Below, in pieces: positions 14,420-32,818 of a stretch of DNA of 38,414 bases. The notes beneath the pieces are model-generated. The model was not told where the DNA came from. It saw only the letters and a list, made by a program, of their open reading frames with translations, and made no database searches. The stretch comes from Acidimicrobiaceae bacterium (lineage in GTDB: Bacteria; Actinomycetota; Acidimicrobiia; Acidimicrobiales; RAAP-2). Where the stretch lies: assembly GCA_003136415.1 (NCBI GenBank), contig PLEI01000017.1:1-38414 (forward strand), given 5' to 3'. The position numbers and the translations under genes were made by a program. Numbering within the stretch: the first letter of the stretch is position 1; the number at the start of each line of letters is the position of its first letter.

Positions 14420-14907
14420 GCGGGGTTCGTGGGGCGACACTGCACCAGCATGGCCCGGTGACACTGAGCGACGATCACGCCGTGTTGGTTTCGCGCGACG
14501 TGCTGTAGCTCGACGACGCCCTCGCCGGGCCGACTCTGAGAAGGTCGCGCCTCGGTGACGAGGGATTCAGCGTAGAGCGTGTCGCCAATAAAGACGGGCT
14601 GGGGAAAAGTGACGTCGCGAAAGCCGAGATTGGCGACCAGGGTGCCCAGCGTGAGCTGGCTGATCGAGAGCCCCACGAGAGTCGAAAGCGTGAACAGACT
14701 GTTCACGAGTCGCTGACCAAAGACCTGCTCGGCGGACCACACGGCGTCGAGGTGTAGCGGCTGAGTATTCATGGTGAGGGTAGTGAAGAGGACATTATCC
14801 GCTTCGGTGACGGTACGACCCGGTCGGTGGCGGTAGAGGGTCCCGACGGTGAATTCCTCCAACCAGAGCCCCCGCTGCTCCACGATCTTGCTGTCGTCCG
14901 TCGACAT
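14416..14907 (-). CDS. MaoC-like hotdog-fold dehydratase
   Basis: [57 protein letters not shown]; overlaps the CitE-like start by 4 bp. Confidence 0.9.
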
Positions 14908-16819: not shown

Positions 16820-16827
16820 GGAGCGAA

Positions 16828-18885
16828 GTGTTCGATACCGTGTTGGTCGCCAATCGCGGTGAGATCTCGGTACGAGTGATCTCAACCTTGAAGCGATTGG
16901 GCATTCGTTCGGTCGCCATCTTTAGCGACGAGGACCAGGGCGCTCGCCACGTGCGTGAGGCCGACGACGCGCTACGCGTCGGCCCCGCCCCGGCTCACCA
17001 GAGCTATCTGAACATCGAGCGAGTCCTCGAAGCGGCCGTGCGGGCGGGGGCGCAAGCCATTCATCCCGGCTACGGCTTCCTGTCAGAGAACGCGGCGTTT
17101 GTTCGCGCGTGTGAGCAGGCGCGCATTGTCTTCATCGGACCGAGCGTCGAATCCGTGGAGATGATGGGGGACAAGATACGAGCGAAGGCGGCGGTGGCGG
17201 CCGCCGGGGTCGCCGTCGTTCCCGGGCGTGCGCACGCAATGATGGATGACCACGAACTCGCCAGCGCGGCGCAGGAAGCCGGATACCCCGTCCTCGTGAA
17301 ACCATCCGCGGGCGGCGGTGGCAAAGGTATGCGCTTGGTGAACTCGCCCGACGACCTCGCCGCAGCGATCGTGTCGGCCCGAAGGGAATCGGCGGCATCC
17401 TTCGGTGACGACACGCTCTTCATCGAGCGCTACGTCGAGAGTCCGCGCCACGTGGAAGTGCAGATCTTGGCTGACAACTTCGGTAACGCGATTCACCTGG
17501 GGGAGCGTGAATGCTCCCTGCAGCGCCGCCACCAGAAGGTGATCGAAGAATCCCCCTCGCCCCTGATGAGCGAACACTCGCGTCGGGCAATCACGGCCGC
17601 GGCGCTTCGAGTAGGCGAGGTGGCCCGCTACCGAGGGGCCGGCACCGTGGAGTTCATCGTTTCTTCAGCGCGGCCTGACGAGTTCTTCTTCATGGAGATG
17701 AACACGCGCCTGCAGGTGGAGCACCCCGTCACGGAAATGGTGACGAATATCGATCTGGTGGAACAGCAACTTCGTGTCGCCGCCGGTGAACGGTTGTCGA
17801 TCACTCAAGACGACGTGCAACCGCGCGGCCACGCCGTGGAGGCGCGCATCTACGCCGAGGACCCCACCCGTGATTTCCTCCCCACCGGCGGCGATCTCCT
17901 CTTTCTCCGTGAACCTCGAGGGACGGGGCTGCGCGTCGACAGCTCGTTGGTGCACGGCACCCACGTGGGCACCATTTACGATCCCCTGCTCGCCAAGGTC
18001 ATCGCCCACGGCAAGGATCGTGGCGAAGCACTCGATCGCCTCGAGAGAGCCGTGGGCGACCTCGTCATTTTCGGCGTGGTGACGAACACGACGTTTTTGC
18101 GACACCTGCTGGCCAATGACGACGTCCGCCGGGGGGCGCTCGACACGAATCTGATCGGTCGCCTGCTGTCGGAAGGTGGAGGCCGCGAGAACCTCGGGAA
18201 AACTTCACTCCTGGAGTGCGCCGCCGGATTCGCCGTCGCACAACTACTGAGATTGGAGAACCAGGTAGCGGGCGACTCTCGCTTCGACGTGCCCGACGGT
18301 TGGCGCATTGGCGAACACGCGACGACGACCTTCTCCGTGGTGATCTCGGAGTCGGTTGCGCTTGACGTGGCCGTTGCGGGTACCTGGCGCGACGCCCGAG
18401 TGACCGTCGACGGCGCTGGTCCGTCGGCGCCGGTGCGCTGTCTCGAGTGGCGAAGGGTGTCGTCGGAGGTCGTGGAGTTGTTCCTCAGTGTGCGAGATCG
18501 AGCGACGCGAGTACTCGTCGGCTTCGAGGGACCGCGTACTTGGATTTGGCAGGGCGGTTGGACCACCCGGTGGCGGGTCGTCATGCCCACCCGTGGCGGG
18601 GGGGAGAGCGACACCCACGACGCCGATGTGCGTTCACCCATGCCCGGGGTCGTCATTCACGTCAGCGTGCAGGAGGGGGACGACGTGTCACCCGGCGACG
18701 CCCTCCTCGTCGTGGAGGCCATGAAGATGGAGCACACGTTGGTGGCGCCCCACACTGGTCGGGTCGTCGGCGTCTTCGTCAATCTCGGCGATCAGGTCGT
18801 CCTCGATCAGGTCGTGGCCCGGGTGACGAGCATCGCGGCCGAGAGCAGTGACGTCCTCGTGGGGTCCGAGACGCCGACAGAGTGA
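16828..18885 (+). CDS. accA1: Acyl-CoA (methylcrotonyl-CoA-like) carboxylase biotin carboxylase/BCCP (alpha) subunit
   Basis: From GTG 16828: FDTVLVANRGEISVRVISTLKRLGIRSVAIFSDED...; C-terminal biotinylation motif VVEAMKMEHTLVAP. Confidence 0.94.
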   Translation: MFDTVLVANRGEISVRVISTLKRLGIRSVAIFSDEDQGARHVREADDALRVGPAPAHQSYLNIERVLEAAVRAGAQAIHPGYGFLSENAAFVRACEQARIVFIGPSVESVEMMGDKIRAKAAVAAAGVAVVPGRAHAMMDDHELASAAQEAGYPVLVKPSAGGGGKGMRLVNSPDDLAAAIVSARRESAASFGDDTLFIERYVESPRHVEVQILADNFGNAIHLGERECSLQRRHQKVIEESPSPLMSEHSRRAITAAALRVGEVARYRGAGTVEFIVSSARPDEFFFMEMNTRLQVEHPVTEMVTNIDLVEQQLRVAAGERLSITQDDVQPRGHAVEARIYAEDPTRDFLPTGGDLLFLREPRGTGLRVDSSLVHGTHVGTIYDPLLAKVIAHGKDRGEALDRLERAVGDLVIFGVVTNTTFLRHLLANDDVRRGALDTNLIGRLLSEGGGRENLGKTSLLECAAGFAVAQLLRLENQVAGDSRFDVPDGWRIGEHATTTFSVVISESVALDVAVAGTWRDARVTVDGAGPSAPVRCLEWRRVSSEVVELFLSVRDRATRVLVGFEGPRTWIWQGGWTTRWRVVMPTRGGGESDTHDADVRSPMPGVVIHVSVQEGDDVSPGDALLVVEAMKMEHTLVAPHTGRVVGVFVNLGDQVVLDQVVARVTSIAAESSDVLVGSETPTE

Positions 18886-18940
18886 ACAGCGAGTGGCCAG
18901 CGCCGCGGCGAGCGACGACGTGGCCGAGAAAGTGGGAACG

Positions 18941-20101
18941 ATGATCGACACAAATTTGGACAGCGAACAAGAGATGTTGCGCGACACTGTCGCGGATTTC
19001 GCGATGAACGTGGTCGCCCCGGTGGCTGCGCATCACGACGCTACTGCCACGTTCCCTTACGAGGTGGTGCGTCAGATGGGCGAGATTGGTTTGTTCGGTC
19101 TGCCCTTCCCCGAAGAATACGGCGGCATGGGCGGGGACTACTTCACGTTGTGCCTGGCGATCGAGGAATTGGCCCGGGTCGATCAGAGTGTCGCGATCAC
19201 TCTGGAGGCCGCGTGTTCTCTGGGCGCTATGCCCGTCTACCGATTCGGCACCGAGGCGCAGAAGCAGTATTGGCTGCCGCAACTCTGTTCGGGACGGGCG
19301 CTCGGCGCCTTCGGACTCACCGAGTCTGAGGCCGGGAGTGACGCCGGAGGCACCCGGACCACGGCGCGGCTCGACGGTGACTGGTGGGTCATCAATGGTT
19401 CGAAGAGCTTCATTACGAATTCTGGTACCACCCTGACCACACTCGTGACCGTGACCGCGGTGACCGACGCCGAGGAGGAACGTCACCGCATCAGTTCCCT
19501 CCTGGTGGAAGTACCGGCCGAGGGCTTGGTCGTCGGAAAGGCGTACGACAAGATGGGCTGGCGCGCGTCGGACACCCACCCACTGTCGTTCCAGAACCTG
19601 CGGGTGCCACGCGAGAACCTCCTGGGCGAACGTGGTCGCGGGTACGCCAATTTCCTTCAGATTCTCGACGAGGGCCGCATCGCCATCGCGGCCCTCGCCG
19701 TGGGTGCGGCGCAGGGGTGCGTTGACCAGAGCGTCGCCTACGCCAACACTCGCGAGGCCTTCGGTCGAACCATCGGACGCAATCAGGCCATCGCCTTCAA
19801 GATTGCTGATATGGAGGCGCGTACTCACGTGGCGCGGTGCGCCTACTACGACGCCGCCGCACGAATGTTGACGGGGAGGAGTTTCAAAAAGGAGGCTTCG
19901 ATCGCCAAGTTAGTGGCGAGCAACGTGGCCATGGAGAATGCGCGCGACGCCACGCAGATCCACGGTGGCTACGGCTTCATGAACGAGAGCGTGGTCGCGC
20001 GGCACTACCGCGACTCCAAGATCCTCGAAATAGGTGAAGGCTCGAGCGAGATGCAAAGAATGTTGATTGCGCGACTGGTCGGCGTCGAACACAGCGATTG
20101 A
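18941..20101 (+). CDS. Acyl-CoA dehydrogenase (isovaleryl-CoA dehydrogenase-like)
   Basis: MIDTNLDSEQEMLRDTVADFAMNVVAPVAAHHD...GAFGLTESEAGSDAGGTRTTA...ARDATQIHGGYGFMNESVVARHYRDSKILEIGEGSSEMQRMLIAR. Confidence 0.93.
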   Translation: MIDTNLDSEQEMLRDTVADFAMNVVAPVAAHHDATATFPYEVVRQMGEIGLFGLPFPEEYGGMGGDYFTLCLAIEELARVDQSVAITLEAACSLGAMPVYRFGTEAQKQYWLPQLCSGRALGAFGLTESEAGSDAGGTRTTARLDGDWWVINGSKSFITNSGTTLTTLVTVTAVTDAEEERHRISSLLVEVPAEGLVVGKAYDKMGWRASDTHPLSFQNLRVPRENLLGERGRGYANFLQILDEGRIAIAALAVGAAQGCVDQSVAYANTREAFGRTIGRNQAIAFKIADMEARTHVARCAYYDAAARMLTGRSFKKEASIAKLVASNVAMENARDATQIHGGYGFMNESVVARHYRDSKILEIGEGSSEMQRMLIARLVGVEHSD

Positions 20102-20349: not shown

Positions 20350-20455
20350 TATCTACGTCGACGGTCCTGTTTTGGGTACCGAGTGATGGGATGTGGGGAC
20401 CTGGGCGACGATGGAGCAGTCATTGATTCTGTCCAAGACAGGGGGGGTAGTGAAG

Positions 20456-21493
20456 ATGATCTTTAACAACCGAATGATGCGCAGGGCGCCGGTGACGATG
20501 GCCGCAGCGCTTGCGGCCAGCAGTGTCTTCGCGACGTGGGCGATTGACGCCACGAGTGCGTCGGCGAAATCGTATTTGTCGATCAGTGTGGGAATCGCAT
20601 TGTCACCACCGAAGGCGGTATTCATGGCGCCCTACGTGGCCCAAGCGCAGGGATACTTCGCCAAGGAAGGACTCCAGGCGAACCTCATCTCGATGCCGAA
20701 CGGACTCAGCACGGAGTTGGGCACCACGGCGGGCTCGATCAACTTCGGGTTGAGTTCGGCCACTGACTCGGTCGAAGCGGCAGCGGCGAAGGCGCCGATC
20801 CACGCCATCGCTTCTTATGGCGCCAAGCTCGACACGGAGTGCGTGGCGGCGCCGGGATACAACACGGGAGCCAAACTCCGTGGGCAGAACGTGGGGACGA
20901 CGGGTGCCGCAGGCTTTGCGGCAACCACGTTGGCCGCGTGCCTCAGGCCATTGGGTCTCACCCTGGCCGACGTGCACCCCGTGATAATGACCCGTTCGCA
21001 GTTCGTCGGGGCGCTCGCCACGGGAGCGATCAAGGTCGCTTCATTCCACGCCGATGACGCCTACGTGGTTCTGCACCAGATCAAGGGATCCACGGTCGTC
21101 GACAAGGAGTACCAGACGCTGCCCAAATGGTGGTACGGCGGCGTCTCGTCGCTCGACTCCTACACCAAGACCCACCCAGTCGTCACCGAGCACTTCCTCG
21201 CGGCGTTGATCCTCGCGAACAACTGGATGAATAACCCGAAGAACTTCAAGGCGCTCGTGAACCTGACCGTGAGGGCCACCGGGGAGGACAAGGCGGCCGT
21301 GACGTACGCCCTGAGGTTCAATCTCGCGGCGAAGTCCTTCACCACCACGATGAATCCGGCGAGTGTGATGTGGACGGCCAAGGAATGCAAGGTTGTCGGC
21401 GACACCACGGTGGTGCCGACCTACAACCAGATCGTCGACAATCACTTCCTCTTGGCGGCGCAGAAGTTGGTGAAGAGTCAAGGTAACGGCTGA
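20456..21493 (+). CDS. ABC transporter substrate-binding protein, SsuA/TauA/NMT1-like
   Basis: Sec-type signal peptide MIFNNRMMRRAPVTMAAALAASSVFATWAIDATSASA; KAVFMAPYVAQAQGYFAKEGLQANLISMPNGLSTELGTTAGSINFGLSSATDSVEAAA. Confidence 0.85.
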   Translation: MIFNNRMMRRAPVTMAAALAASSVFATWAIDATSASAKSYLSISVGIALSPPKAVFMAPYVAQAQGYFAKEGLQANLISMPNGLSTELGTTAGSINFGLSSATDSVEAAAAKAPIHAIASYGAKLDTECVAAPGYNTGAKLRGQNVGTTGAAGFAATTLAACLRPLGLTLADVHPVIMTRSQFVGALATGAIKVASFHADDAYVVLHQIKGSTVVDKEYQTLPKWWYGGVSSLDSYTKTHPVVTEHFLAALILANNWMNNPKNFKALVNLTVRATGEDKAAVTYALRFNLAAKSFTTTMNPASVMWTAKECKVVGDTTVVPTYNQIVDNHFLLAAQKLVKSQGNG

Positions 21494-21551
21494 ACCGCGG
21501 GTCGGTGCCGCACGTAACACGTTCCAATGAGTAGCGAAGGAGAGGGCTGTC

Positions 21552-22343
21552 ATGATGATGTCTGAACGGGTTCGCGGGGTTCGATTCGACGAACTCACGA
21601 ATCCCGAGATCGTGGCGGCCCTCTCCGAGCGGCCCCTGGTACTGATCCCGTGCGGCAGCACGGAGCAGCACGGACCGCACCTGCCCACGGGGACCGACTA
21701 TTTCGCCAGCCTGGCCATCAGTGACCTCGTGGCCCAGAGGATCGGCGGACTGGTGCTCGGGGGGATGCAGTTCGGGATCACTCCCATCCACATGGGGTTC
21801 GCGAGCACCGTGACAGTTTCGGCGGCGACGTTCGAGGCGATTCACATGGACATCGCGGCCTCGTTGGTGGCCCACGGGGTCGAGGAGATCGCCTACGTGA
21901 ATTGGCACGAGGGCAACATTGGTTCACTGACCACGGTGGCGAGCCGGGTGACCCAGGAACTGAGAGCCAACGTCGTCGTCGCCCAAGCGTGCTACGTCGC
22001 GGAGGAGCTCTTTGGCGAGAAGATGGCCGGCCTGACGCACGGGGGGGCCATCGAGGCCGCGGCCGTGCTCGGTTGGCGGCCCGAACTCGTGCGCTACGAC
22101 CAACTCGACCCGGCGGAGGATTCGCCCGGCGAGCGACCGGCGGACCACGCGCGACGCGGACGATCATTCCAGACGGTCTTGCGCGACATTCGTGAGATCT
22201 CGAATTCGGGTTGGTACGGCTCGTCACAGCGGGTCAGCGATGAGGAAGGTCGCGAACTGGTGCAACGCGTCGCCGAGGTCGTGGCCCGTGAACTCGACGT
22301 GCGCTTCGAGCACTTGAAGAAGCTTCGTCCGGTCGTTGAGTGA
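21552..22343 (+). CDS. Creatininase-family amidohydrolase/hydrolase
   Basis: LVLIPCGSTEQHGPHLPTGTDYFASLAISDLVAQRIGG...VNWHEGNIGSLTT; metal-binding E-QHG-HLP-TD pattern. Confidence 0.93.
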   Translation: MMMSERVRGVRFDELTNPEIVAALSERPLVLIPCGSTEQHGPHLPTGTDYFASLAISDLVAQRIGGLVLGGMQFGITPIHMGFASTVTVSAATFEAIHMDIAASLVAHGVEEIAYVNWHEGNIGSLTTVASRVTQELRANVVVAQACYVAEELFGEKMAGLTHGGAIEAAAVLGWRPELVRYDQLDPAEDSPGERPADHARRGRSFQTVLRDIREISNSGWYGSSQRVSDEEGRELVQRVAEVVARELDVRFEHLKKLRPVVE

Positions 22344-22708
22344 TGGCCCGGGTCCTGCGTCCGCGCGACGCCGAAGTCCTGCGTCTGCGGGGTCGCAGCG
22401 CGAGCGTCCTGCTCTCCGGTGACGACACCGGGGGGCAGATGACCGTCCGGGTCGTGGAGGTCGACCCGGAGCCTCGCGACGCCGAACCGCGACCACTGCA
22501 CGTCCACGAGGGCGTGGGTGAGTTCATGTGGATCCTTGAAGGGACCGGATTGCTCCACTGCGATCAGGGGGTCCTGCCCGCGCACCAGGGAGAAGTGGTC
22601 TACATCCCCCCGGGTGAGATGCACAAGATCATGCCGAGTGGTGAAGAGTCCTTGCACCTGCTGTGCGTGTTCCCCACGGGTGACATCGCCGCGCGAACGA
22701 GAGAGTAG
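22340..22708 (+). CDS. Cupin-domain protein
   Basis: PLHVHEGVGEFMWILEGTGLLHCDQGVLPAHQGEVVYIPPGEMHKI cupin motifs 1 and 2; overlaps the preceding stop. Confidence 0.9.
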   Translation: MMARVLRPRDAEVLRLRGRSASVLLSGDDTGGQMTVRVVEVDPEPRDAEPRPLHVHEGVGEFMWILEGTGLLHCDQGVLPAHQGEVVYIPPGEMHKIMPSGEESLHLLCVFPTGDIAARTRE

Positions 22709-22711
22709 TCC

Positions 22712-23701
22712 GTGACCATTTCCGACAAGGGAACAACCGTCGTCTGCCTGCGTCCCCGACGCGATTTCGACCAGGTGGGTGTGCCAGTGCCCGACGACCT
22801 CGACGTGACTTTCTTCGATCACGAGCGCAGCCTCGACCGGATCGGTCCGGAGGTTGCCTGCGTGGTCCTACCCTCGGCGGGTCCGGCGTTGGCGCCCGAG
22901 ATGTTCGCTAGCGCGAGTGGCCTCACCCTCGTGCAGTACACGGGTGCGGGAATCGACCGTATCGCCGACAGCGTGATCGCACAATTGGGGTTTGCGGTCT
23001 GCAACGTACCGGGGGCGAGCGCACCCGACGTGGCGGCCTACGTCGTCGTCGCGACTGGCGTCCTCCTGCGCAACGTGATCGAGGGCGACCGATTGATGAA
23101 GGCGGGGATGTTCGACGAGGCCCGCGTGCGCATGATTCCCGCCGTGGTGCGTGGCTACCGGGGGCTACAAGTCGGGGTGGTCGGTTTCGGAAGCATCGGC
23201 CACGAGGTCGCGACATCGTTCCACGCGTTGGGCGCCGAGGTGATGTGGTTCGACCCCGAGCCCGCAGCGGCCGACGCCTCGGGTCTCTTCGAACGTGTCG
23301 AACTGGAAGAGCTCTTGGAGCGTTGCGAAGTATTGACGGTGCACGTTCCGCTTCTCGAGTCCACTCGCGGACTGATTGACGCCGCCGCCCTCGCGCGTCT
23401 GCGGCCCGGGGCGGTAGTGGTCAACGCGGCCCGTGGCGGCATCGTCGAGGAGGCGGCGCTGATGGACGCCCTCGACTCGAAGCACCTCGGGGGAGTAGTC
23501 CTCGACGTCTTCGAACGCGAACCTCTCCCCGCGGATTCACCACTGGTGGCGTGGTCGCAACGTCACGCCGACCGGGTCCTTCTCACTCCGCACATCGCGG
23601 GTGTGACGCCCGAGGCGTCACGGGTTCTCTTCGAACGGGCGTGGTCGAACGTCCACTCAGTGCTCGTCGAGGGGGGTGAGCCTCGTCACCGGTTGAGGTG
23701 A
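22712..23701 (+). CDS. D-isomer-specific 2-hydroxyacid dehydrogenase
   Basis: QVGVVGFGSIGHEVATSFHALGAEVMWFDPEP, LRPGAVVVNAARGGIVEEAALMDAL, LTPHIAGVTPEA. Confidence 0.93.
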   Translation: MTISDKGTTVVCLRPRRDFDQVGVPVPDDLDVTFFDHERSLDRIGPEVACVVLPSAGPALAPEMFASASGLTLVQYTGAGIDRIADSVIAQLGFAVCNVPGASAPDVAAYVVVATGVLLRNVIEGDRLMKAGMFDEARVRMIPAVVRGYRGLQVGVVGFGSIGHEVATSFHALGAEVMWFDPEPAAADASGLFERVELEELLERCEVLTVHVPLLESTRGLIDAAALARLRPGAVVVNAARGGIVEEAALMDALDSKHLGGVVLDVFEREPLPADSPLVAWSQRHADRVLLTPHIAGVTPEASRVLFERAWSNVHSVLVEGGEPRHRLR

Positions 23702-23792
23702 GGGCTCGCGGGTCGCAGTTCAAGGAACCATTGTGGTCGTCGTCACGCTTGTTCGCAGGCGCGGGCGGTCACCGAAAAAAGGAGGATAGTCA

Positions 23793-24875
23793 GTGACGCA
23801 GGGAACGAGTGGGGGACCAACGAGGCTGGCGGCGGTCGGACTGGGGAGATGGGCGCGAATCATGGCGTCGGCCTACTACCAGAGCGACGACGTCGAGCTG
23901 GTGAGCTGCTTCAGTCGCAATCCGGAGCGCCGGGCGCGTTTCGCCGCCGACTACGGCTGCGGCGAGGACGGGTCACTCGAGGCGCTGCTCGCGCGTGACG
24001 ACATCGAAGGCGTGGTGATCACCGTGCCCAATGACCAGCACGCTTCGGTCATCGAGGCCGCCGCGAGAGCCGGCAAGCACGTCTACGTCGAGAAGCCCGT
24101 GGCGGTGGACGTGGTCGACATCAAGCGAATCCGCGCCGCCGTGGCCGAGAGCGGGATCGTCTTCGCCTGCGGCCACAGCGCACGTCGACTGGCCGGGGTG
24201 CGCGAGATGCGTCGTTGCCTCGACAGCGGGGAGATCGGTACGCCGTCGATGGTGGAGGTCGTCTTCTCGAACGAGCGAGGCCTCGAGCTCAATGAGGGGG
24301 ACTGGCGCGGCGATCCCGAGCGAGCGCCCGGCGGCCCGCTCACCCAGCTGGGCATCCATCACATTGACAATCTCAACTTTCTATTCGGCGTGCCGCGCCG
24401 GGTCGTGGCGATGGGTCGCCAGGGCGCGCCGAGGGTGTCCAACACCATGGTCGTTGGTGCGCTGCTCGAGTTCGACGACGTGATCGGGTTCCTGGGCAAC
24501 GACTGGCTCACGCCCGGGGCCTTCACGATGGACCTCTACGCCACCCAGGCCCGACTGCGTTACGAGCTCGACTTCAGTTGGTGGAGCGATTCGGCCGACA
24601 CCGACGCCCACTCACGCCTCATCAAGGTGGAATTCGACTCCCACGGCGACGATCCCGACGCCCGCGTCCTGTCGGAGCGACCGGTCCGACTCGACGCACG
24701 CAACCACCTGCGCGAGGAGATCGTCGAGTTCGCGTTGGCCATCCGCGGCCGCGCCGAGATCGAGGTCGGCCTGGAGACCGCAATAGCCAATGTCGCGGTC
24801 ATGAGGGCAACCCTTCGGGCTCTCGACGAGAAGCGAACCGTAGAGGTCGCCGAGACCATGAGCGAGTTGTCGTGA
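23793..24875 (+). CDS. Gfo/Idh/MocA-family oxidoreductase
   Basis: LAAVGLGRWARIMASAYYQSDDVELVSCFSRNPERRARFAADYGC...GVVITVPNDQHASVIEAAARAGKHVYVEKPVAV; strong RBS AAAAAAGGAGG. Confidence 0.94.
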   Translation: MTQGTSGGPTRLAAVGLGRWARIMASAYYQSDDVELVSCFSRNPERRARFAADYGCGEDGSLEALLARDDIEGVVITVPNDQHASVIEAAARAGKHVYVEKPVAVDVVDIKRIRAAVAESGIVFACGHSARRLAGVREMRRCLDSGEIGTPSMVEVVFSNERGLELNEGDWRGDPERAPGGPLTQLGIHHIDNLNFLFGVPRRVVAMGRQGAPRVSNTMVVGALLEFDDVIGFLGNDWLTPGAFTMDLYATQARLRYELDFSWWSDSADTDAHSRLIKVEFDSHGDDPDARVLSERPVRLDARNHLREEIVEFALAIRGRAEIEVGLETAIANVAVMRATLRALDEKRTVEVAETMSELS

Positions 24876-24889
24876 GGGGTCCGAGAGGG

Positions 24890-24918
24890 TTGACAGTCTC
24901 GATGGACGATGTTAATGT
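24890..24918 (+). promoter_or_regulatory. Candidate promoter with consensus -35 TTGACA (24890-24895) and weak -10 TAATGT
   Basis: TTGACA, 17-nt spacer, TAATGT; intergenic, upstream of the UxaA-type pair. Confidence 0.5.
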
Positions 24919-24940
24919 TTCGCTGATGTGCAGTGGCAAG

Positions 24941-24951
24941 AGGTCCGACCT
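24941..24951. promoter_or_regulatory. Perfect palindrome AGGTCcGACCT; candidate FadR/GntR operator (with degenerate second copy at 24982-24992)
   Basis: AAGAGGTCCGACCTG; matches the tGGTCnGACCa-like half-site geometry of FadR-type (FCD) GntR proteins. Confidence 0.6.
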
Positions 24952-25022
24952 GCGAGCAGGAAGGACCCGGAACCGGGGAAGAGGTCAGAACATGCAGGGA
25001 ATTCTGAGAAATGAGGCGCACC

Positions 25023-25316
25023 GTGGATGAGCAACTGGCGTTCCTGGCGCATCGCCAGAGCGACATGGTGGCGGTCGCCGTGCGCGACGTCGAGGCGGGT
25101 CACGCCGAATACGCATCGTTGGACTCGGACCTACGCCGGCCGATCGAGTTGCCGGAGCCGATCAAACTCGGTCACAAGGTCGCGCTAGTCGAGATCGCCG
25201 AGGGCGCCGACGTCATCGAGTACGGCGAACGCGTGGCGGTGGCCACCGCGGACATCGCCATCGGAACTTTGGTACACGTCCACAATGTAAGGAGCACAAG
25301 ATGGCAACTGGCCTAA
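25023..25316 (+). CDS. SAF-domain small subunit of UxaA/SuyA-type hydro-/sulfo-lyase
   Basis: MVAVAVRDVEAGHAEYASLDSD...ELPEPIKLGHKVALVEIAEGADVIEYGERVAVATADIAIGTLVHVHNVRS; SAF pattern ending VHNV, immediately followed by the large subunit. Confidence 0.88.
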   Translation: MDEQLAFLAHRQSDMVAVAVRDVEAGHAEYASLDSDLRRPIELPEPIKLGHKVALVEIAEGADVIEYGERVAVATADIAIGTLVHVHNVRSTRWQLA

Positions 25317-26455
25317 CTGGATACCGTCGACCGGACGGAAAGGTAGGAATCCGCAACCACGTCCTTATCCTCGGGGTCGACGACCTCTCGAACACGGCCG
25401 TCGAGGGGATCGGACGGCTCGTGCCCGGCACGTTGTCGATCCCGCACTCCTACGGTCGATTGCAGTTCGGCGAGGATCTGGAGCTGACGTTTCGTACGCT
25501 GATCGGCACGGGGGCCAACCCCAACGTGGCGGCAGTGGTCGTGGTGGGGATCGAGCCCTCGTGGACCGATCGCGTGGCTGACGGCATCGCGGTGACCGGT
25601 AAGCCGGTCGTGCGCCTTTCGATCGAACGCTTCGGCGACATCAACGTCATCGCGGCCGGTGCGCGAGCTGCGGCCAAGTTGGTGCAGGACGCCAGTGAGA
25701 TCCAGCGCGTCCCCGTGGAACGCCACGAGGTCATGTTGTCGATCAAGTGCGGCGAGTCGGACACCACCAGCGGCCTCGGGTCGTGCCCCACCACATCGCA
25801 GGCCGTCGATCGCACGGTGGCCGCCAGTGGCACCGTCCTCTTCGGCGAGACCACCGAGTTGACCGGGGGAGAGCACCTCATCGCGGCGCGCTGTGTCGAT
25901 GACGAGGTCCGCGAGAAGTTCCAAGCCTTCTTCGACGACTACCTCTCGATGGTCGTGGCCCAGGGAGTTGACCTCCTCGGGTCCCAGCCGACCCAGGGCA
26001 ACATCCGCGGTGGCCTGTCGACCATCGAGGAGAAGGCGATGGGCAACATCGCCAAGACCGGGACGGTGCCGGTCGTGGACGCCCTGAGTCCGGCGCAGGC
26101 CCCGACGCGCCAGGGTCTCAACTTCATGGACACCTCGTCGGCGGCTGCGGAGTGCATCACGTTGATGGCGGCGGCCGGGGCGGTGATCCACATCTTCCCG
26201 ACGGGTCAGGGCAACGTCATCGGCAATCCGATCGAACCGGTGATCAAGTTGACCGCCAACCCCGTGACGGCCGAGACGATGAGTGAGCACATCGACCTCG
26301 ACGTCTCGGGCCTGCTGAAGTTGGAATACTCCCTGGCCGAAGCCGGTGACCGGTTGATGGAGGTCGTCGACCGGACGATCAATGGTCGCCTGACCTGTGC
26401 CGAGGCGATTGGTCACCGCGAGTACGTGATCACCAAGTTGTACCGCAGCGCTTGA
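25301..26455 (+). CDS. UxaA-family large subunit (altronate/galactarate dehydratase or (2R)-sulfolactate sulfo-lyase beta-like)
   Basis: GYRRPDGKVGIRNHVLILGVDDLSN..., SIKCGESDTTSGLGSCPTTS, QGNIRGGLSTIEEKAMGNIAKTGTVPVVDAL, GQGNVIGNPIEPVIKLTAN. Confidence 0.92.
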   Translation: MATGLTGYRRPDGKVGIRNHVLILGVDDLSNTAVEGIGRLVPGTLSIPHSYGRLQFGEDLELTFRTLIGTGANPNVAAVVVVGIEPSWTDRVADGIAVTGKPVVRLSIERFGDINVIAAGARAAAKLVQDASEIQRVPVERHEVMLSIKCGESDTTSGLGSCPTTSQAVDRTVAASGTVLFGETTELTGGEHLIAARCVDDEVREKFQAFFDDYLSMVVAQGVDLLGSQPTQGNIRGGLSTIEEKAMGNIAKTGTVPVVDALSPAQAPTRQGLNFMDTSSAAAECITLMAAAGAVIHIFPTGQGNVIGNPIEPVIKLTANPVTAETMSEHIDLDVSGLLKLEYSLAEAGDRLMEVVDRTINGRLTCAEAIGHREYVITKLYRSA

Positions 26456-26457
26456 TC

Positions 26458-26493
26458 GGCGTCCCCGGTGGCCGCGAGACCACCGGGGACGCC
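26458..26493 (+). terminator. Perfect 14-bp-arm hairpin in the UxaA-LVIVD intergenic region (no U-tract)
   Basis: GGCGTCCCCGGTGG-ccgcgaga-CCACCGGGGACGCC. Confidence 0.6.
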
Positions 26494-26568
26494 CATCGGC
26501 CCGAGCACCCGATCGGCCGACGGGTCGTGGCGGACACGCGGACATCGGATGAGAAGAGGGGGGTTCTG

Positions 26569-27858
26569 ATGGAGATCAGAGGGATGAAGTTGCTGTCAAC
26601 GCTGTCGCTCGGCGAGGGCATGGCGGGGGGCGAGGGACTCGCCACCCACGTGGGAGCACGCGGTCGCCGGTCCCTCTTCGTGGCGTCGGAGCAAGCGCCC
26701 TACGACTTCGTGGTGGCCGACGTCAGCGATCCCACGGCACCCGAGGTCGTCTACCGCCACGACCTGGTCGGTCCCCACGTGCGCTCGAACAATCTGGCCA
26801 TCCACGAAGACCTGCTCGCGGTCACGCGTCAGGCCAAGGAGATGGGCGCGAGCCCCGCCGGAGTCGAGTTCTTCGACATCTCGACCCCGTCGCAGCCCCG
26901 TTCCGTGGGATTCTTCGACGCGTCGGGCGGTAACTCGATCGGCACGCACTTCGTGTGGCTCGACGGAGCCGGTTTTGCCTATCTGGCCACCCAGGACTCC
27001 GACTACGCCGCGCGGGACCCGCGAGACCAGTTCATGATGAAGATCATCGACGTGTCGGATCCCTCCCGGGCGCACGAGGTGGGTCGTTGGTGGACGCCGG
27101 GTACCCAACGCAGTGACGACGAGCCCGCACCCGTGCGTCCCCACCAGCGACTGGCGAGCGCGCGAGGCGAGTCGCTCACGAGCGAACAGGTGGCCGCACG
27201 GCGCGTCGATCACGGCGGGGTCGCCTCGTGGGACTTCGGCATCCGCGTGCACAACGTCTGCGTCCTGCCCGAGCGGCCCGATCGGGCCTACGTCGCCTCG
27301 ACGTCGGGGGGCGCCTTCATCTTCGACATCGCGGACCGATCGACGCCCCGGGTGGTCGGTGAGTTGCAGTACGGCGCTACTCTGCCCGGCGCCGCGCACA
27401 CGTTCGTCCCGCTCGGGGCGTCGGGCTTCGGACTCCTCTCGGACGAGACCCTCGAAGAGGGTGCTGCGGACTTCCCCCAGAACGTCTGGGTGGTGGACAT
27501 GCGCCTCGAGGACCGGCCCCAGATCGTGGGATCGCTGGAGATGCCCTGGCCCGACAGTGTCCCTTCGGAGGGCCGCTTCGGGGCCCATAACCTCCACGAG
27601 TACCCCCTGGGCCAGGGAGCGTGGCGCGATTTCAACGTTGCGGCGGGTGCCTTCTTCGGCCTGGGTGTCGGTGTCTACGACGTCTCGACGCCACTGCGTC
27701 CTCGAGAGATCGGTCGCTTCGTGCCCGGCGTCGATTCCGAGGGACCCAGTCGCGGTCAGCTGAACGACGTGTTCCTCGACGACCGCGCGATTCTCTACAC
27801 CATCGACCGCAAGAGCGACACGTGCTTCATCCTCGAGCTCGACGGTGCGACTAATTGA
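26569..27858 (+). CDS. LVIVD-repeat beta-propeller protein
   Basis: Repeated FDISTPSQPRSVG, IIDVSDPSRAHEVG, IFDIADRSTPRVVGEL, VYDVSTPLRPREIG units; RBS GAGAAGAGGGGGG upstream of ATG 26569. Confidence 0.85.
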   Translation: MEIRGMKLLSTLSLGEGMAGGEGLATHVGARGRRSLFVASEQAPYDFVVADVSDPTAPEVVYRHDLVGPHVRSNNLAIHEDLLAVTRQAKEMGASPAGVEFFDISTPSQPRSVGFFDASGGNSIGTHFVWLDGAGFAYLATQDSDYAARDPRDQFMMKIIDVSDPSRAHEVGRWWTPGTQRSDDEPAPVRPHQRLASARGESLTSEQVAARRVDHGGVASWDFGIRVHNVCVLPERPDRAYVASTSGGAFIFDIADRSTPRVVGELQYGATLPGAAHTFVPLGASGFGLLSDETLEEGAADFPQNVWVVDMRLEDRPQIVGSLEMPWPDSVPSEGRFGAHNLHEYPLGQGAWRDFNVAAGAFFGLGVGVYDVSTPLRPREIGRFVPGVDSEGPSRGQLNDVFLDDRAILYTIDRKSDTCFILELDGATN

Positions 27859-27917
27859 ACAATAGGGGGGCTGCACCGAATCGAGGGCGGCCGTAATAAG
27901 GGAATGTCACGAGAAGC

Positions 27918-27938
27918 CTCTGGTAGATTTGACCAGAG
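27918..27938. promoter_or_regulatory. Inverted repeat CTCTGGT-agatttg-ACCAGAG; candidate autoregulatory operator
   Basis: Perfect 7-bp arms, directly upstream of the GntR gene; followed by AAGAGGTCTGGAGAC (from 27943). Confidence 0.6.
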
Positions 27939-27962
27939 ACGTAAGAGGTCTGGAGACAGGTC

Positions 27963-28673
27963 ATGGAATCGCTGTTCCACCCAATTCGAGAATCAGGGAG
28001 CCTGTCGGACCGCATCGTGACTCTCATCGAGGAGTTGATCGACAGCGAGGCCTTGGGCGAGGGCCAGCAACTCCCGCCCGAGCGAGACCTGGCCACCATG
28101 CTCGGCGTGAGCCGACCGGCCCTGCGTGAGGCGATCAAGATCCTCGAGGCCCATCAGCGCCTGATCGTCAAGCACGGCCAGGGCGTGTTCGTCGGCCTCA
28201 ACAAGCAGGACCTGGTTCGCCAACGTCTGGCCAACCTGGAGATCTCGCTCATGGAGTTGTTCCGGGTGCGCGAGGTGTTGGAATCGACGGCCGCCAACTG
28301 GGCGGCGAGCTCGGCCACCGTCGAGGAGATCGAGGTTCTGGCGCGGATCTTGGAGGAACAAGAAGAGGCCTACCTCGAACCCGTGGACTTTGTGCGTCTC
28401 AAGCACCTCGACGCGCTGTTCCACATGACCATCGTGTCCATGGCGAAGAACCGCTTCCTCTCCCAGACCTTCGCCGCTCTCCAGGAGATGATCGACGAGG
28501 GGATGGAGACCACGTTGCAGGTCCCGGGGCGTCTGGAGATCTCGCGCAACGACCACTATCGGGTGTTTGAGGCCATCAAGGACCGCAACACCGAGGTGGC
28601 CGCCGCGGCCGCGGCCATCCACATCAACGGCGCGAAGAACGCCGCGATGAAGCGACTCCGCCAGCCCACCTGA
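27963..28673 (+). CDS. FadR-subfamily (FCD-domain) GntR transcriptional regulator
   Basis: LIDSEALGEGQQLPPERDLATMLGVSRPALREAIKILEAHQRLIVKHGQGVFV HTH; FCD-type C-terminal helices. Confidence 0.94.
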   Translation: MESLFHPIRESGSLSDRIVTLIEELIDSEALGEGQQLPPERDLATMLGVSRPALREAIKILEAHQRLIVKHGQGVFVGLNKQDLVRQRLANLEISLMELFRVREVLESTAANWAASSATVEEIEVLARILEEQEEAYLEPVDFVRLKHLDALFHMTIVSMAKNRFLSQTFAALQEMIDEGMETTLQVPGRLEISRNDHYRVFEAIKDRNTEVAAAAAAIHINGAKNAAMKRLRQPT

Positions 28674-28679
28674 CGATCC

Positions 28680-28704
28680 CGGTCGTCGTCCGAGAAGACG
28701 ACCG
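28680..28704. terminator. Hairpin CGGTCGTC-n9-GACGACCG in the convergent gap between GntR and permease genes
   Basis: Perfect 8-bp arms between two converging CDSs. Confidence 0.45.
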
Positions 28705-28733
28705 TCGAGGCGAACGAAGTTGTCCGGCGCGTC

Positions 28734-29618
28734 CTAGTGTCGACGGCCGCGGTCGACGCGTTGCCAGGGGATGACCCAGCGCTGGATCAGCGACAGGATC
28801 AACCGCAGCGTCAGGCCCAGGGCCATGATGAGCAAGATGACGGCGAGGGCGGCTGCCGTGTGGTACGTCGAGGACTGGGTCTGCAGGGCATCGCCGATGC
28901 CGGTCAACTGCGTCTGGACCTCGGCGATGATCACACCGACCATGCCCATTGCCACTCCCTGGGTGGCTCCGGTGACGATGAAGGGCACCGCGCCGGGCAG
29001 GAGAACGTGCAACCAGGTCTGGCGACGGTTCAGGCGCAGCGAGCGCGACACCTCGAGCAACTCGGGGTCGATCTCGCGAATCCCGTGGAACACGGTGACC
29101 GTCACCGGCCAGACGACGAAGAGGGTGACGATCACGACCTGGGCGGTGAAGTTGTAGCCCACCCAGAGGCTGATGATCGGTACGAGGGCGACCATCGGCG
29201 TCGCGTAGAGGGCGAAGATGTACATGGAGATCGCGGCCTCGGCCGCGCGGTAGGCCCCGGTGAGCATTCCGAGAAAGACGCCGATTATCATGCCGAGCAA
29301 GTAGCCCCAGGCGAAGGTCTTCACGCTGATGAACAGCTGGCCTGCCAGTCCGTGTTGGGTGAAGAGCAGGTAGCCCTCATGGATCACGGTGGTGATCGGT
29401 GCGAACAAGATGGCGATGGTGTGGCTGCCGTAGATCTGCCAGCCGACGAAGACGATCGCCAGTGAGGCGACCCTGATCGAGAGGAACACGAGGCGCTGGC
29501 GACGTAGTCGCCGTTGCCGGCGTTGGAAGATCTGTCGGCCGATCTCATCGGTGGAGGTTCGCGGTTCCGACGGGGTCACGGTGCTCGGGTAGGCCACCTT
29601 GTCGTTGTCGATGGTCAC
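28734..29618 (-). CDS. ABC transporter permease, SsuC/TauC-like
   Basis: YGSHTIAILFAPITTVIHEGYLL...SVKTFAWGYLLGMIIGVFLGMLTG...LPGAVPFIVTGATQGVAMGMVGVIIAEV (EAA loop region). Confidence 0.92.
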   Translation of the reverse strand: MTIDNDKVAYPSTVTPSEPRTSTDEIGRQIFQRRQRRLRRQRLVFLSIRVASLAIVFVGWQIYGSHTIAILFAPITTVIHEGYLLFTQHGLAGQLFISVKTFAWGYLLGMIIGVFLGMLTGAYRAAEAAISMYIFALYATPMVALVPIISLWVGYNFTAQVVIVTLFVVWPVTVTVFHGIREIDPELLEVSRSLRLNRRQTWLHVLLPGAVPFIVTGATQGVAMGMVGVIIAEVQTQLTGIGDALQTQSSTYHTAAALAVILLIMALGLTLRLILSLIQRWVIPWQRVDRGRRH

Positions 29619-29622
29619 GACG

Positions 29623-30459
29623 TCACTGTCCCTTCGCGGTCGAATCCGGAGTGCGCAAGAGATCCCAGATCTCTTCGCGCAACGGGGCGTAGAGGGGGTT
29701 GCGCCGCACCGACGCGACCGTTCGTGGCCGCTCGATGGGGATGGGGATCTCCTTGACGATGCGGCCGGGGCGCGCCCCCATCACCACCACCCGGTCGGCG
29801 AGCGTGATGGCCTCGTCGATACTGTGGGTGATGAACACCGCGGTCTGCTTGTGGCGGCCCCAGAGATTGAGGAGCTCCTCCTGGAGGATCTCGCGAGTCT
29901 GTGCGTCGACCGCGGCGAAGGGTTCGTCGAGCAAGATGACCTCGGGTCGGATCGCCAGGGCTCGCGCCAGTCCCGCGCGCTGTTTCATACCGCCCGAGAG
30001 CTGCGACGGGTACTTCGTGTCACTGTCCTTGAGCCCCACCAACTCGATGGCCTCGCGCGCTCGTTGGAGGGCCTCGTCCTTTTTGATGCCGGCCGCGCGA
30101 AGCGGCAACGCCACGTTCTTTAACACGGTCTTCCACGGGAAGAGTCCGAATTGCTGGAAGACGACGGCGACCGTCGGAAGGGGATCGTCGACCCTCGTGC
30201 CCCCAATCTCGATGGTGCCGTTGTCGATATCGGTCAGCCCCGCGATCATGCGCAGGAGGGTCGTCTTGCCGCATCCCGACGGTCCCACGACGCAGACGAA
30301 CTCTTTAGGGGCGATGTCCAGATCCAGGCTCTCGATGATCAGCGAAGTGCCGAACCATTTGAAGATGTCCCGGCATCTGATCTCACCACTGTCGGACTTC
30401 GTTCCCTGTTGAGCGGTCACTTCCTTGTCCGTCGCCGGAGATTGTTCCCGAGTCGTCAT
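29623..30459 (-). CDS. ABC transporter ATP-binding protein, SsuB/TauB-like
   Basis: VVGPSGCGKTTLLRMIAGL Walker A, LSGGMKQRAGLARALAI signature, VILLDEPFAAVD Walker B. ATG 30459 preferred (RBS AGAGGGGGG). Confidence 0.95.
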   Translation of the reverse strand: MTTREQSPATDKEVTAQQGTKSDSGEIRCRDIFKWFGTSLIIESLDLDIAPKEFVCVVGPSGCGKTTLLRMIAGLTDIDNGTIEIGGTRVDDPLPTVAVVFQQFGLFPWKTVLKNVALPLRAAGIKKDEALQRAREAIELVGLKDSDTKYPSQLSGGMKQRAGLARALAIRPEVILLDEPFAAVDAQTREILQEELLNLWGRHKQTAVFITHSIDEAITLADRVVVMGARPGRIVKEIPIPIERPRTVASVRRNPLYAPLREEIWDLLRTPDSTAKGQ

Positions 30460-30470
30460 CGCCCCCCTCT

Positions 30471-30480
30471 GGTCTGACCT
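30471..30480. promoter_or_regulatory. Candidate FadR/GntR operator AAGAGGTCAGACCAGAG (read on minus strand)
   Basis: GGTCtGACC inverted repeat between a TTGACA (-35, complement of 30513-30518) and the RBS of the ATPase gene. Confidence 0.55.
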
Positions 30481-30578
30481 CTTGTCACAAGCTAATCGTG
30501 GTGGACCCGACGTGTCAAATGGTGTCACCGACGCATCGCTCTGGCACCTCGAGATACGCCCCGAGGGACTCTCGCCAC

Positions 30579-31496
30579 TCAGGCGTCGAGCGAGGAGGCC
30601 ACCGCCACGTCGAGGAGACGCCGCGCCGTGGGACCGAGTTTGACGTCACGGCGCCAGACGGCGCGGAAGCTCCGTGAGAGGTCGACGTCGCGAGTGGGTA
30701 CGACGATCAAGCGGCCACCGGCGACGTCGTCGGCGACGGCGATCTCGCTCAGGACAACGGGTCCACCGCCGCGACGCGCGGCCCCGAGCAACGCTCCGGT
30801 GGAGCCCAGGACGACGCTCGATCGCACTCCGCCCCAGGGGGCGAGAGCCGCCTCGAGCACTTCGCGGGTCCCGGAACCGGGTTCGCGGGTCACAATGTCC
30901 GACGCGGCGATGTCCGCGCCCGCGACACCCTCTCGCAGTGATGCCCAAGGATGAGTGGTCGCGACGACGACGACGAGACGGTCGTGTCCGACGACCACGC
31001 TGTCAATGCCGTCGGTGACCTCTTCGATCCCTTCGACGAAACCAAGGTCGGCGTCGCCGGCCACGACGCGCGCGATGACGGTGGCCGAGTTCACCACGTC
31101 CAACGACAGCGCAAGATCGGGCGACTGGCCCGTGAAGACGCGGATCCAGCTCGGCAGGAGGTACTCGGCGATGGTCAGCGACGCGGCCACCTGCACTCGG
31201 GACATGGTGCCACGCCGTAGTGCCGCGGCGGTCGAGTTCATGGCGTCGACCTCGACGAGCACGCGGTCCACAGCCGCGGCGATCCGTACGCCCTCGGGGC
31301 TGAGGCGCGTTCCGGTGGGACCTCGTTCGAAGAGGGTGACGCCGAGACGTCGCTCGAGGAGGCGCATTCGGGCGCTCACCGCCGGTTGGGTCATGGTGTG
31401 ACGCCGAGCGGCGCGGCCGAAACTGCCGAGTTCGGCCACCGAACGCAGCAGGTCCAACGATATAAGGTCCGGCGTGGTCGGCGGCAGCACCCCCAC
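30579..31496 (-). CDS. LysR-family transcriptional regulator
   Basis: ISLDLLRSVAELGSFGRAARRHTMTQPAVSARMRLLERRLGVTLFERGPTGTRLSPEG HTH. Confidence 0.94.
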   Translation of the reverse strand: MGVLPPTTPDLISLDLLRSVAELGSFGRAARRHTMTQPAVSARMRLLERRLGVTLFERGPTGTRLSPEGVRIAAAVDRVLVEVDAMNSTAAALRRGTMSRVQVAASLTIAEYLLPSWIRVFTGQSPDLALSLDVVNSATVIARVVAGDADLGFVEGIEEVTDGIDSVVVGHDRLVVVVATTHPWASLREGVAGADIAASDIVTREPGSGTREVLEAALAPWGGVRSSVVLGSTGALLGAARRGGGPVVLSEIAVADDVAGGRLIVVPTRDVDLSRSFRAVWRRDVKLGPTARRLLDVAVASSLDA

Positions 31497-31630
31497 AGTC
31501 TACCTATGGTGTAGTCGGCATTAATCGGCGCTCACAGAAGGATTCACTCCGCCTAGTCATAAGCCAAGGTGACGGGCTCCTAAGGAATTGGACAGTACCG
31601 GTGCGCCCGCGGGACGGGCAGACTCGGATT

Positions 31631-32818
31631 ATGGAACGATCTACTGACTTCACTGCTCGTCGCGACGCGGGAGGTTCCCCTGCTTCCGATCGCGATCGCG
31701 ATCACGACTCGTTGACGCTGGGACCGAACTGGTTTGCGTCGGTGATGGGGACGGGCATCGTGGCGACGGCGGGCGCCACTCTGCCGTTCCATGTCAAGGG
31801 GATGCACGTCTTCACCCTGTCGATCTGGCTGGTCTCCCTCGTCGTGTTGACGGTGTTGATCGTCGCCTTCGCGGTGCACGGGGTCCGTCACCCCGGTGCG
31901 ATCGGACGCTACGCGCGCGACGTCACCCTGGCGCAATTCTTCGGTGCCCCGCCCATGGCACTGCTCACCGTGGGAGCGGGGGCGCTGCTGGTCGGCCGGT
32001 CGCTGATCGGCGACGGGGCGGCCCTCGCCTTGGACTGGGTGCTCTGGTCGGCGGGAACCGTCACGGGTCTGGCGACCGCGGTGGCCGTTCCCTACTTGCT
32101 CTTCACGCGCCTAGAGGTGCGCCACGACGCCGCCTTCGGTGGCTGGCTCATGCCCGTGGTGCCGCCGATGGTGTCGGCGGCGTCGGGTGGACTGCTCATC
32201 GCCCACGTGTCGTCGCAGACCGGTCGGGCGACCTTGCTCTACGGCTGCTACGCCATGTTCGGCATGAGTCTGATCGCGTCGTTGATCATCATCACCCTCA
32301 TCTGGTCGCGACTGGCCCACTTCGGCTCCTCGGGTTCGGTCCGCGTGCCAACCCTCTGGATCGTCCTGGGGCCTCTCGGCCAGTCGATCACCGCCGCGGG
32401 CATCCTCGGTTCTAACGCCTCGCTCGCGGTGGCGTCGCCGATCGCCCGCGGGTTCTCGTTCTTTTCGGTGGCCTACGGTGTCCCTACGTGGGGCTTCGCC
32501 GTGCTTTGGATCTGCCTCGCGACGGGCCTCACCGTCCGAACCGCTCGTCACCACTTGCCTTTTCACCTGACCTGGTGGAGTTTCACCTTCCCGGTGGGCA
32601 CATTCGTCACCGGAACGACGCGGCTCGCTCTGGCCACGCAACTGCCCGCTCTTCGAGTCGCCGCCGGTGTCGCGTACGTGGGGCTGTTGAGCGCGTGGGT
32701 GATGGTGGCCGCCCTGACGCTCCGCGGGATAATCTCCGGTCACCTGCTGCGTTCGCCACTCTCCGGGGGCCGGGGTCCCGAAGCGATGAAGGGCGACCTG
32801 ACGGCCCTCGCGCGGTGA
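31631..32818 (+). CDS. TDT-family transporter (TehA/SLAC1/Ssu1-like)
   Basis: NWFASVMGTGIVATAGATLPF, ~10 TM helices, WWSFTFPVGTFVTGTTRLA, GVPTWGFAVLWICLA. Confidence 0.85.
   Translation: MERSTDFTARRDAGGSPASDRDRDHDSLTLGPNWFASVMGTGIVATAGATLPFHVKGMHVFTLSIWLVSLVVLTVLIVAFAVHGVRHPGAIGRYARDVTLAQFFGAPPMALLTVGAGALLVGRSLIGDGAALALDWVLWSAGTVTGLATAVAVPYLLFTRLEVRHDAAFGGWLMPVVPPMVSAASGGLLIAHVSSQTGRATLLYGCYAMFGMSLIASLIIITLIWSRLAHFGSSGSVRVPTLWIVLGPLGQSITAAGILGSNASLAVASPIARGFSFFSVAYGVPTWGFAVLWICLATGLTVRTARHHLPFHLTWWSFTFPVGTFVTGTTRLALATQLPALRVAAGVAYVGLLSAWVMVAALTLRGIISGHLLRSPLSGGRGPEAMKGDLTALAR

Follow-up and report, generated by a model that had tools for sequence, protein, structure and literature searches.

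The sulfo-lyase SuyAB is a known exit of organosulfonates to sulfite. In Cupriavidus the genes hpsRNOUPsuyAB make up a documented route for dihydroxypropanesulfonate (DHPS) and sulfolactate (PMC11382572), and a paper on sulfofucose (PMC12421959) lists SlcC, ComC and SuyAB for Sinorhizobium mexicanum ITTG R7. Six sulfoquinovose routes, sulfo-EMP, -ED, -TAL, -TK, -ASMO and -ASDO, are described in a 2026 review (PMC12890257). The present study deals with a SuyAB locus of an Acidimicrobiaceae bacterium (assembly GCA_003136415.1, contig PLEI01000017.1, positions 1 to 38,414; this whole stretch of 38,414 nucleotides is called the window). The cassette comprises eleven genes, coding for a substrate-binding protein, a creatininase-like protein, a cupin, a D-2-hydroxyacid dehydrogenase (2-HDH), a Gfo/Idh oxidoreductase, SuyA, SuyB, an LVIVD propeller, a GntR regulator and the SsuC and SsuB components of an ATP-binding cassette (ABC) importer. 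The creatininase-like protein, cupin, 2-HDH and Gfo/Idh protein together are referred to as the front end. From its gene content and relatives it is probable that the cassette serves the carbon catabolism of an organosulfonate, which would be imported by the ABC system and converted by the front end to (R)-sulfolactate, from which SuyAB would then form pyruvate and sulfite. The window's genome (G000) is a draft assembly of 2.64 Mb that is about 91% complete; other genomes are labelled with G numbers and other loci with L numbers.

SuyA (25011..25316, plus strand; PF08666), the predicted small SAF-domain subunit of sulfolactate sulfo-lyase, is similar to the N-terminal domain of altronate hydrolase (3k3s) and lies upstream of SuyB in relatives. 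SuyB (25301..26455, plus strand; PF20629/PF04295) is the predicted large subunit, and the pair displays the two-subunit layout of a small SAF protein and a large GD_AH protein. The large subunit shares 74% identity with a Rhodococcus protein, 58% with the Cupriavidus hps-cluster protein and 55-60% with proteins encoded beside hpsN, hpsO and hpsP or beside SlcC/ComC-type genes. A preliminary description of the locus had proposed a tree of this subunit as a check. In the maximum-likelihood tree it did not nest among the altronate/galactarate dehydratases; it was found inside a 100/100-supported clade of 31 SuyB sequences, which includes the proteins of the Cupriavidus hps cluster and of S. mexicanum ITTG R7. 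UxaA, GarD and other two-subunit UxaA-family proteins fall outside this clade. It has been reported that four cysteines are conserved throughout the UxaA/GarD superfamily, SuyAB excepted (PMC6336799). Three of the four positions were aligned: C132 of UxaA corresponds to Leu29, C199 to a gap, and C264 is kept as C150. In this alignment the cysteine pattern of the large subunit fits the reported SuyAB exception, two iron-ligand cysteines being lost. A UxaA/GarD dehydratase identity was rejected, since the protein lies outside the altronate/galactarate clade and the dehydratase cysteines are missing. Judged by clade and cysteine pattern, the UxaA-like pair is SuyAB, (R)-sulfolactate sulfo-lyase. 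The closest SuyB proteins outside the cassette (74-84% identity; L006 and L130-L132) are encoded beside SlcC-like and ComC-like genes, and in L006, L130 and L131 an aldehyde dehydrogenase gene also lies beside SuyB.

The eleven genes recur in five further loci of Acidimicrobiaceae type (G030, G022, L019, L021 and L023) with the gene order reshuffled. G030, a sister genome of the same genus, has all eleven genes in near-identical order with 78-92% protein identity. G022, also a sister genome of this genus, has the same eleven genes at roughly 50-75% identity in shuffled order. In L021 the LVIVD protein is represented by a distant homologue only, and L018 and L022 repeat the set but are cut off by contig ends. 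The ratio of nonsynonymous to synonymous substitution rates (dN/dS) between the window and G030 was 0.09-0.19 across all eleven genes, so the genes are maintained under purifying selection. Because the set recurs in spite of the reshuffled order, and because of these dN/dS values, comparison of the sequences indicates that the gene set is intact and is not a chance arrangement. A SuyB-like gene was found in only 3 of the 37 genomes of the genus that were searched, and the trait is therefore patchy. Plasmid searches with the creatininase-like and Gfo/Idh proteins as queries gave distant matches only and no cassette. LysR and TDT genes that adjoin the cassette (30579-32818) were considered as core members and rejected: in G030 the eleven genes are present without an adjoining LysR/TDT pair, which places the pair outside the conserved set, and TDT is also found in sister genomes that lack SuyB.

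All the genes named in the preliminary description were present as open frames at the positions given there, and profile searches agreed with the families. The first gene (20456..21493, plus strand) codes for a binding protein of the NMT1/THI5 type, SsuA/TauA-like, with an N-terminal stretch resembling a signal peptide (PF09084, 58.8 bits; 57-84% identity to relatives). By its profile matches it resembles SsuA but is of the NMT1 PF09084 type and is not filed as SsuA. The SsuC-type permease (28734..29618, minus strand; PF00528) and the SsuB-type ATPase (29623..30528, minus strand; PF00005) are kept with the cassette in relatives. The importer genes do not form one block: the binding protein is coded on the plus strand and SsuC and SsuB on the minus strand behind the GntR gene. 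This regulator (27963..28673, plus strand; PF07729 and PF00392), of the GntR/FadR (FCD) type, is likewise kept with the cassette in relatives and would control it. A simple scan for GntR operators found no palindrome common to the window and G030 except TGTCCAAGACA. This palindrome-like site lies at 20430-20440, just before the binding-protein gene, and is found in the same region in G030; as a possible GntR operator it is too weak to claim. The tight gene order described earlier holds for part of the locus. The creatininase-like and cupin genes overlap by 4 nt, cupin and 2-HDH are 3 nt apart, and SuyA and SuyB overlap by 16 nt, but the gaps are wider between 2-HDH and Gfo (91 nt), Gfo and SuyA (135 nt), SuyB and LVIVD (113 nt), and LVIVD and GntR (104 nt).

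The creatininase-like protein (21552..22343, plus strand; PF02633, 176.6 bits) is a predicted metallohydrolase of the VNWHEGN subfamily. Its predicted model (predicted local distance difference test, pLDDT, 90.5) has the creatininase fold, with a template-modelling (TM) score of 0.77 to 1j2t, and the metal ligands E38, H40, D49 and H119 are invariant in 26 relatives. Creatininase proper was rejected, as the match to TIGR04448 reached 97 of the 235 bits needed and Glu122 is not kept; that position is Gly121 in the window protein, with a Glu at 120. IolN (3-dehydro-scyllo-inosose hydrolase) was also rejected, with 62 of the 245 bits needed for NF041098, and the protein is far below the MftE model too. 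Dihydrophloroglucinol cyclohydrolase was dropped as a candidate since its kinship is with isatin hydrolase (PMC10470551). The cupin (22340..22708, plus strand; PF07883, 44.9 bits) is a single-domain protein in which the H-H-E and P-G-x-x-H metal motifs are seen. The Gfo/Idh/MocA oxidoreductase (23793..24875, plus strand; PF01408/PF22725) has the EKP motif. Its closest solved structure is 3db2 (396 bits), a structure without assigned function, and its match to the IolG model is 103 of 355 bits. The 2-HDH (22712..23701, plus strand; PF02826, 166 bits) falls in its tree into a front-end clade apart from SlcC-type enzymes, and an SlcC identity was rejected on this basis; one entry of that tree (L131) has a very long branch and is an artefact of the reading frame. 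The LVIVD-repeat beta-propeller (26569..27858, plus strand; PF08309) most likely starts at 26569 rather than at the TTG at 26452, because orthologues align from 26569. H228, H277, E293, H340, H343 and E344 are invariant in 14 homologues, and its predicted model (pLDDT 90) has the Sphingobium phosphotriesterase 5hrm as best PDB match (E 5e-15). From these residues and this match the propeller is probably a metal-dependent hydrolase.

To map the distribution of the front end, 84,980 species genomes were scanned with the creatininase-like protein as sole query, which gave 79 loci with the VNWHEGN or RFDELT[ND]P motif. Cupin, 2-HDH and Gfo/Idh all adjoin the creatininase-like gene in 67 of these, and the loci are spread over Alphaproteobacteria including SAR116, Actinomycetota, Chloroflexota and Bacillota. 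For 21 of the 79 loci, SuyA or SuyB was found in the flanking sequence that was fetched. SuyB occurs in few genomes of the window's class (14 of 395), and with a combined length of 1.25 Mb for the 79 loci, chance placement would give far less clustering than this. When the loci are marked on the creatininase tree as 'SuyAB nearby' or not, the mark switches 11 times; well-supported branches force at least 9 of the switches, and some reflect contig ends that cut off SuyB (L018, L022). The front end is thus associated with SuyAB in a phylogenetically scattered way, and on this tree the two were apparently joined on several separate occasions, in Actinomycetota and in Alphaproteobacteria. The NMT1-type binding protein is present in 18 of the 21 SuyAB-bearing loci vs 18 of the 58 others (p=2e-5), and SsuC is likewise enriched (p=3e-4), relatedness being ignored in both tests. 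This enrichment links the importer to the front end and SuyAB. Across the class, SuyB and the creatininase-like protein co-occur in 4 of 395 genomes where 0.8 are expected (p=0.006). This is a modest signal, and the weight therefore rests on physical clustering. In four front-end loci of Firmicutes/Chloroflexi (L058, L061, L062 and L063) the place of SuyAB is taken by an isopropylmalate-synthase-like HMGL protein together with subunits resembling succinyl-CoA ligase, which suggests from gene content that the same front end may feed a different end reaction there. Desulfosporosinus fructosivorans (G459, the genome of L058) has the front end and a SuyB of 55% identity on separate contigs, and is a possible anaerobic carrier of the pathway. 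SuyAB is not nearby in a series of SAR116/Rhodobacterales front-end loci (L031, L035-L038, L040, L041, L044, L045, L048, L055 and L059), which hold SsuBC and NMT1 importer genes together with genes for glutathione S-transferases and OsmC proteins, and in many cases one for a TauE exporter.

That many genomes have the front end without SuyB is one reason to consider that the cassette is a sugar-acid or cyclitol pathway, with the UxaA-like pair acting as dehydratase on an aldonate or aldarate that the front end supplies from a cyclitol, lactone or uronate. The partial likeness to the inositol enzymes given above (103 of 355 bits for IolG and 62 of 245 for IolN) and LacI-type regulators near some front-end loci also fit this idea. 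However, the large subunit belongs to the SuyB clade and is without the dehydratase cysteines, the importer is of the SsuABC/NMT1 type, and sulfite-handling genes adjoin the cassette in the sister genome G022. With these findings a sugar-acid or cyclitol pathway is unlikely. The preliminary description had set such a pathway (its idea B) against an organosulfonate pathway (its idea A). As to the latter, SuyB clade and cysteines bear out the UxaA pair as the predicted sulfite-releasing end, but the role given to the dehydrogenases did not hold. They were thought simply to interconvert a sulfonated hydroxy acid; the 2-HDH does not belong to the SlcC clade, and it occurs with Gfo/Idh, creatininase-like protein and cupin in many genomes where SuyB was not found. 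A mixture of the two ideas, with a sugar-type front end and a sulfonate-type end, is likely.

Several observations weigh against organosulfonate catabolism by this cassette. G000, an assembly that is about 91% complete, lacks the canonical partners SlcC and ComC; for ComC this follows from the lack of any match to the Ldh_2 family (PF02615) in G000. The binding protein scored 34.8 of the 163.5 bits needed for SsuA_fam, far below the cut-off. A GH31 sulfoquinovosidase was sought in three genomes and not found. D-configured sulfosugars are expected to give (S)-sulfolactate, so that an inversion is needed before SuyAB (PMC12421959). In most front-end loci beyond the Acidimicrobiaceae-type group SuyAB is not nearby, and 26 of the 37 front-end genomes tested had no SuyB-like match (E 1e-60) anywhere. 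The front end therefore also serves other substrates and is not by itself specific for sulfonates. Since the 2-HDH is not SlcC and ComC is lacking in G000, the sulfolactate must come from the front end.

For the organosulfonate cassette we infer the following substrate and course of the front-end steps. The SsuABC/NMT1-type importer would bring in a sulfur-containing organic acid or sugar. Gfo/Idh protein, creatininase-fold metallohydrolase, cupin and D-2-HDH would convert it to (R)-sulfolactate, with the LVIVD hydrolase possibly assisting the front end in this lineage, and SuyAB would then split off sulfite so that pyruvate remains. As to the chemistry, our leading guess is a tentative one: oxidation of a sulfosugar or its acid may give a 2,4-diketone, from which metal-dependent hydrolysis of a C-C bond, of the retro-Claisen type, may then release sulfolactate and a C3 fragment. 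IolN, a member of the creatininase family, is a hydrolase that opens a cyclic diketone. Moreover, the mycobacterial/nocardioidal SuyAB loci L080, L084, L085 and L086 code for a fumarylacetoacetate-hydrolase protein, for which the best model is 2,4-didehydro-3-deoxy-L-rhamnonate hydrolase, below the cut-off, and which hints at diketo-acid cleavage. It is on this indirect support, the family shared with IolN and this protein, that diketone cleavage is favoured. More speculatively, Gfo/Idh oxidation followed by a retro-Claisen hydrolase of creatininase fold might cut a 6-sulfo-hexose or hexonate directly to sulfolactate and a C3 acid without passing through sulfolactaldehyde. Gfo/Idh, creatininase-like protein, cupin and 2-HDH would in that case form a general module, present in several phyla, to which different end enzymes can be attached: SuyAB in some, and a CoA-ligase with an HMGL-type lyase in Firmicutes. 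A C3-sulfonate amide or lactone as substrate is a serious alternative within the same organosulfonate explanation. The importer would take up a small sulfonate, or an amide, ester or lactone of one; the creatininase-like protein would hydrolyse the amide or lactone, and 2-HDH and Gfo/Idh would be an SlcC/ComC-like pair that inverts sulfolactate. Amide hydrolases exist in the creatininase family, small sulfonates are carried by SsuA-type proteins, and inversion in G000, where ComC is missing, would need another enzyme pair. But the 2-HDH is not SlcC, and both dehydrogenases accompany creatininase-like protein and cupin also in genomes without SuyB; we regard this C3 route as possible rather than probable.

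The sulfite formed would either be exported by the neighbouring TDT protein under the control of the LysR or be oxidized by a molybdopterin oxidoreductase coded elsewhere. The LysR (30579..31496, minus strand), a YeiE-like candidate sulfite sensor, shows 33% identity (96 bits) to E. coli YeiE, scores no more than 42 bits against YhaJ and TdcA, and shares 43-48% identity with LysR proteins adjoining PF03601 or TDT genes in sister genomes. The TDT/SLAC1-family transporter (31601..32818, plus strand; PF03595, 238 bits; TIGR00816, 118 of 237 bits) is a candidate sulfite exporter and has homologues of 62-64% identity in the sister genomes G005 and G028. G005 has the LysR/TDT pair and no SuyB match in the genome. 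In G022 the cassette is flanked by LysR and a PF03601 exporter of the YeiH/SuyZ type, a sulfite-oxidase-type molybdoenzyme and pyruvate/phosphate dikinase. The LysR/PF03601 pair of G030 sits on a different contig from the cassette. PF03601 is absent from G000, and one molybdoenzyme of the sulfite-oxidase type is coded elsewhere in this genome. In sulfite resistance of Salmonella, YeiH, the PF03601 protein encoded next to YeiE, is under YeiE control (PMC12880088). We read the LysR/TDT genes as a separate, exchangeable sulfite-sensing exporter unit in which TDT may substitute for YeiH. The earlier guess of a sulfite exporter has gained in strength, as the adjoining LysR is most similar to YeiE and sister genomes pair the same kind of LysR with PF03601. 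These genes also bear on the view that the locus is a sulfur-scavenging island, where desulfonation serves assimilation only and no carbon is catabolized. Scavenging of sulfonate sulfur is the best-known role of SsuABC-type importers. But no SsuD/TauD-like oxygenase is found among the annotated cassette genes, the GntR/FCD regulator is of a catabolic type, and exporter or sulfite-oxidase genes, which are needed mainly under excess sulfite, are present; such an island is very unlikely here.

Just upstream of the cassette, genes for an acyl-CoA carboxylase beta subunit, a biotin carboxylase/BCCP and an acyl-CoA dehydrogenase are located at 15191-20101. This is a separate cluster of acyl-CoA catabolism and is not kept with the cassette. 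Further upstream, an aldose-1-epimerase and an HpcH/HpaI-type lyase are coded at 11424-12374 and 13586-14464. These families are also found in sulfosugar pathways, but neither gene was found next to the cassette in relatives.

The preliminary description did not recognize this combination of genes as a described pathway. In the open-licence literature no creatininase-containing SuyAB pathway was found, and a description elsewhere is possible. Catabolism that terminates in SuyAB is known; the joint chemistry of the four-enzyme front end is new to us, as the front end joined to SuyAB here is absent from the pathway papers found. If the proposed pathway is true, a natural sulfonate enters the sulfur cycle by an unrecognized route, and a function open to testing could be assigned to the widespread VNWHEGN creatininase subfamily, which is otherwise named only after creatinine. 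Mycolicibacterium agri, Nocardioides caldifontis and Conexibacter sp. CPCC 206217 are named strains that carry the same gene set, and the question is therefore directly testable. None of the six sulfoquinovose routes, as described in the review (PMC12890257), uses the front end of the window. Their signature enzymes were not found among the cassette genes; GH31 is absent from the three genomes, and the others and GH188 were not searched genome-wide. IolN (NF041098) is comparable in being a creatininase-family enzyme that acts after sugar-type dehydrogenation, but the window protein falls short of its model and the locus has no cyclitol genes. The YeiE/YeiH sulfite-stress divergon (PMC12880088) resembles the window in that a YeiE-like LysR is divergent from a membrane exporter. 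The partner in the window is TDT/SLAC1, whereas YeiH-type PF03601 partners are found in G022 and G030. The tandem sulfofucolytic-SuyAB pathway of Paracoccus wurundjeri (PMC12421959) likewise has an ABC importer, a sugar-type front end and a SuyAB end. However, it employs a short-chain dehydrogenase/reductase, an SMP-30 lactonase, an enolase-family dehydratase, a PF03328 aldolase and SlcC/ComC, and none of these is in the window cassette. The Rhodococcus/Acidimicrobiia clusters of aldehyde dehydrogenase, SlcC-like and ComC-like proteins and SuyAB (L006, L130-L132) contain the SuyB proteins closest to that of the cassette but are without the creatininase/cupin/Gfo front end. The hpsRNOUPsuyAB cluster of Cupriavidus pinatubonensis (PMC11382572) shares SuyAB as terminal lyase, and in place of its HpsN, HpsO and HpsP with an importer of the major facilitator superfamily, the window has Gfo/Idh, creatininase-like protein, cupin and 2-HDH with an ABC importer.

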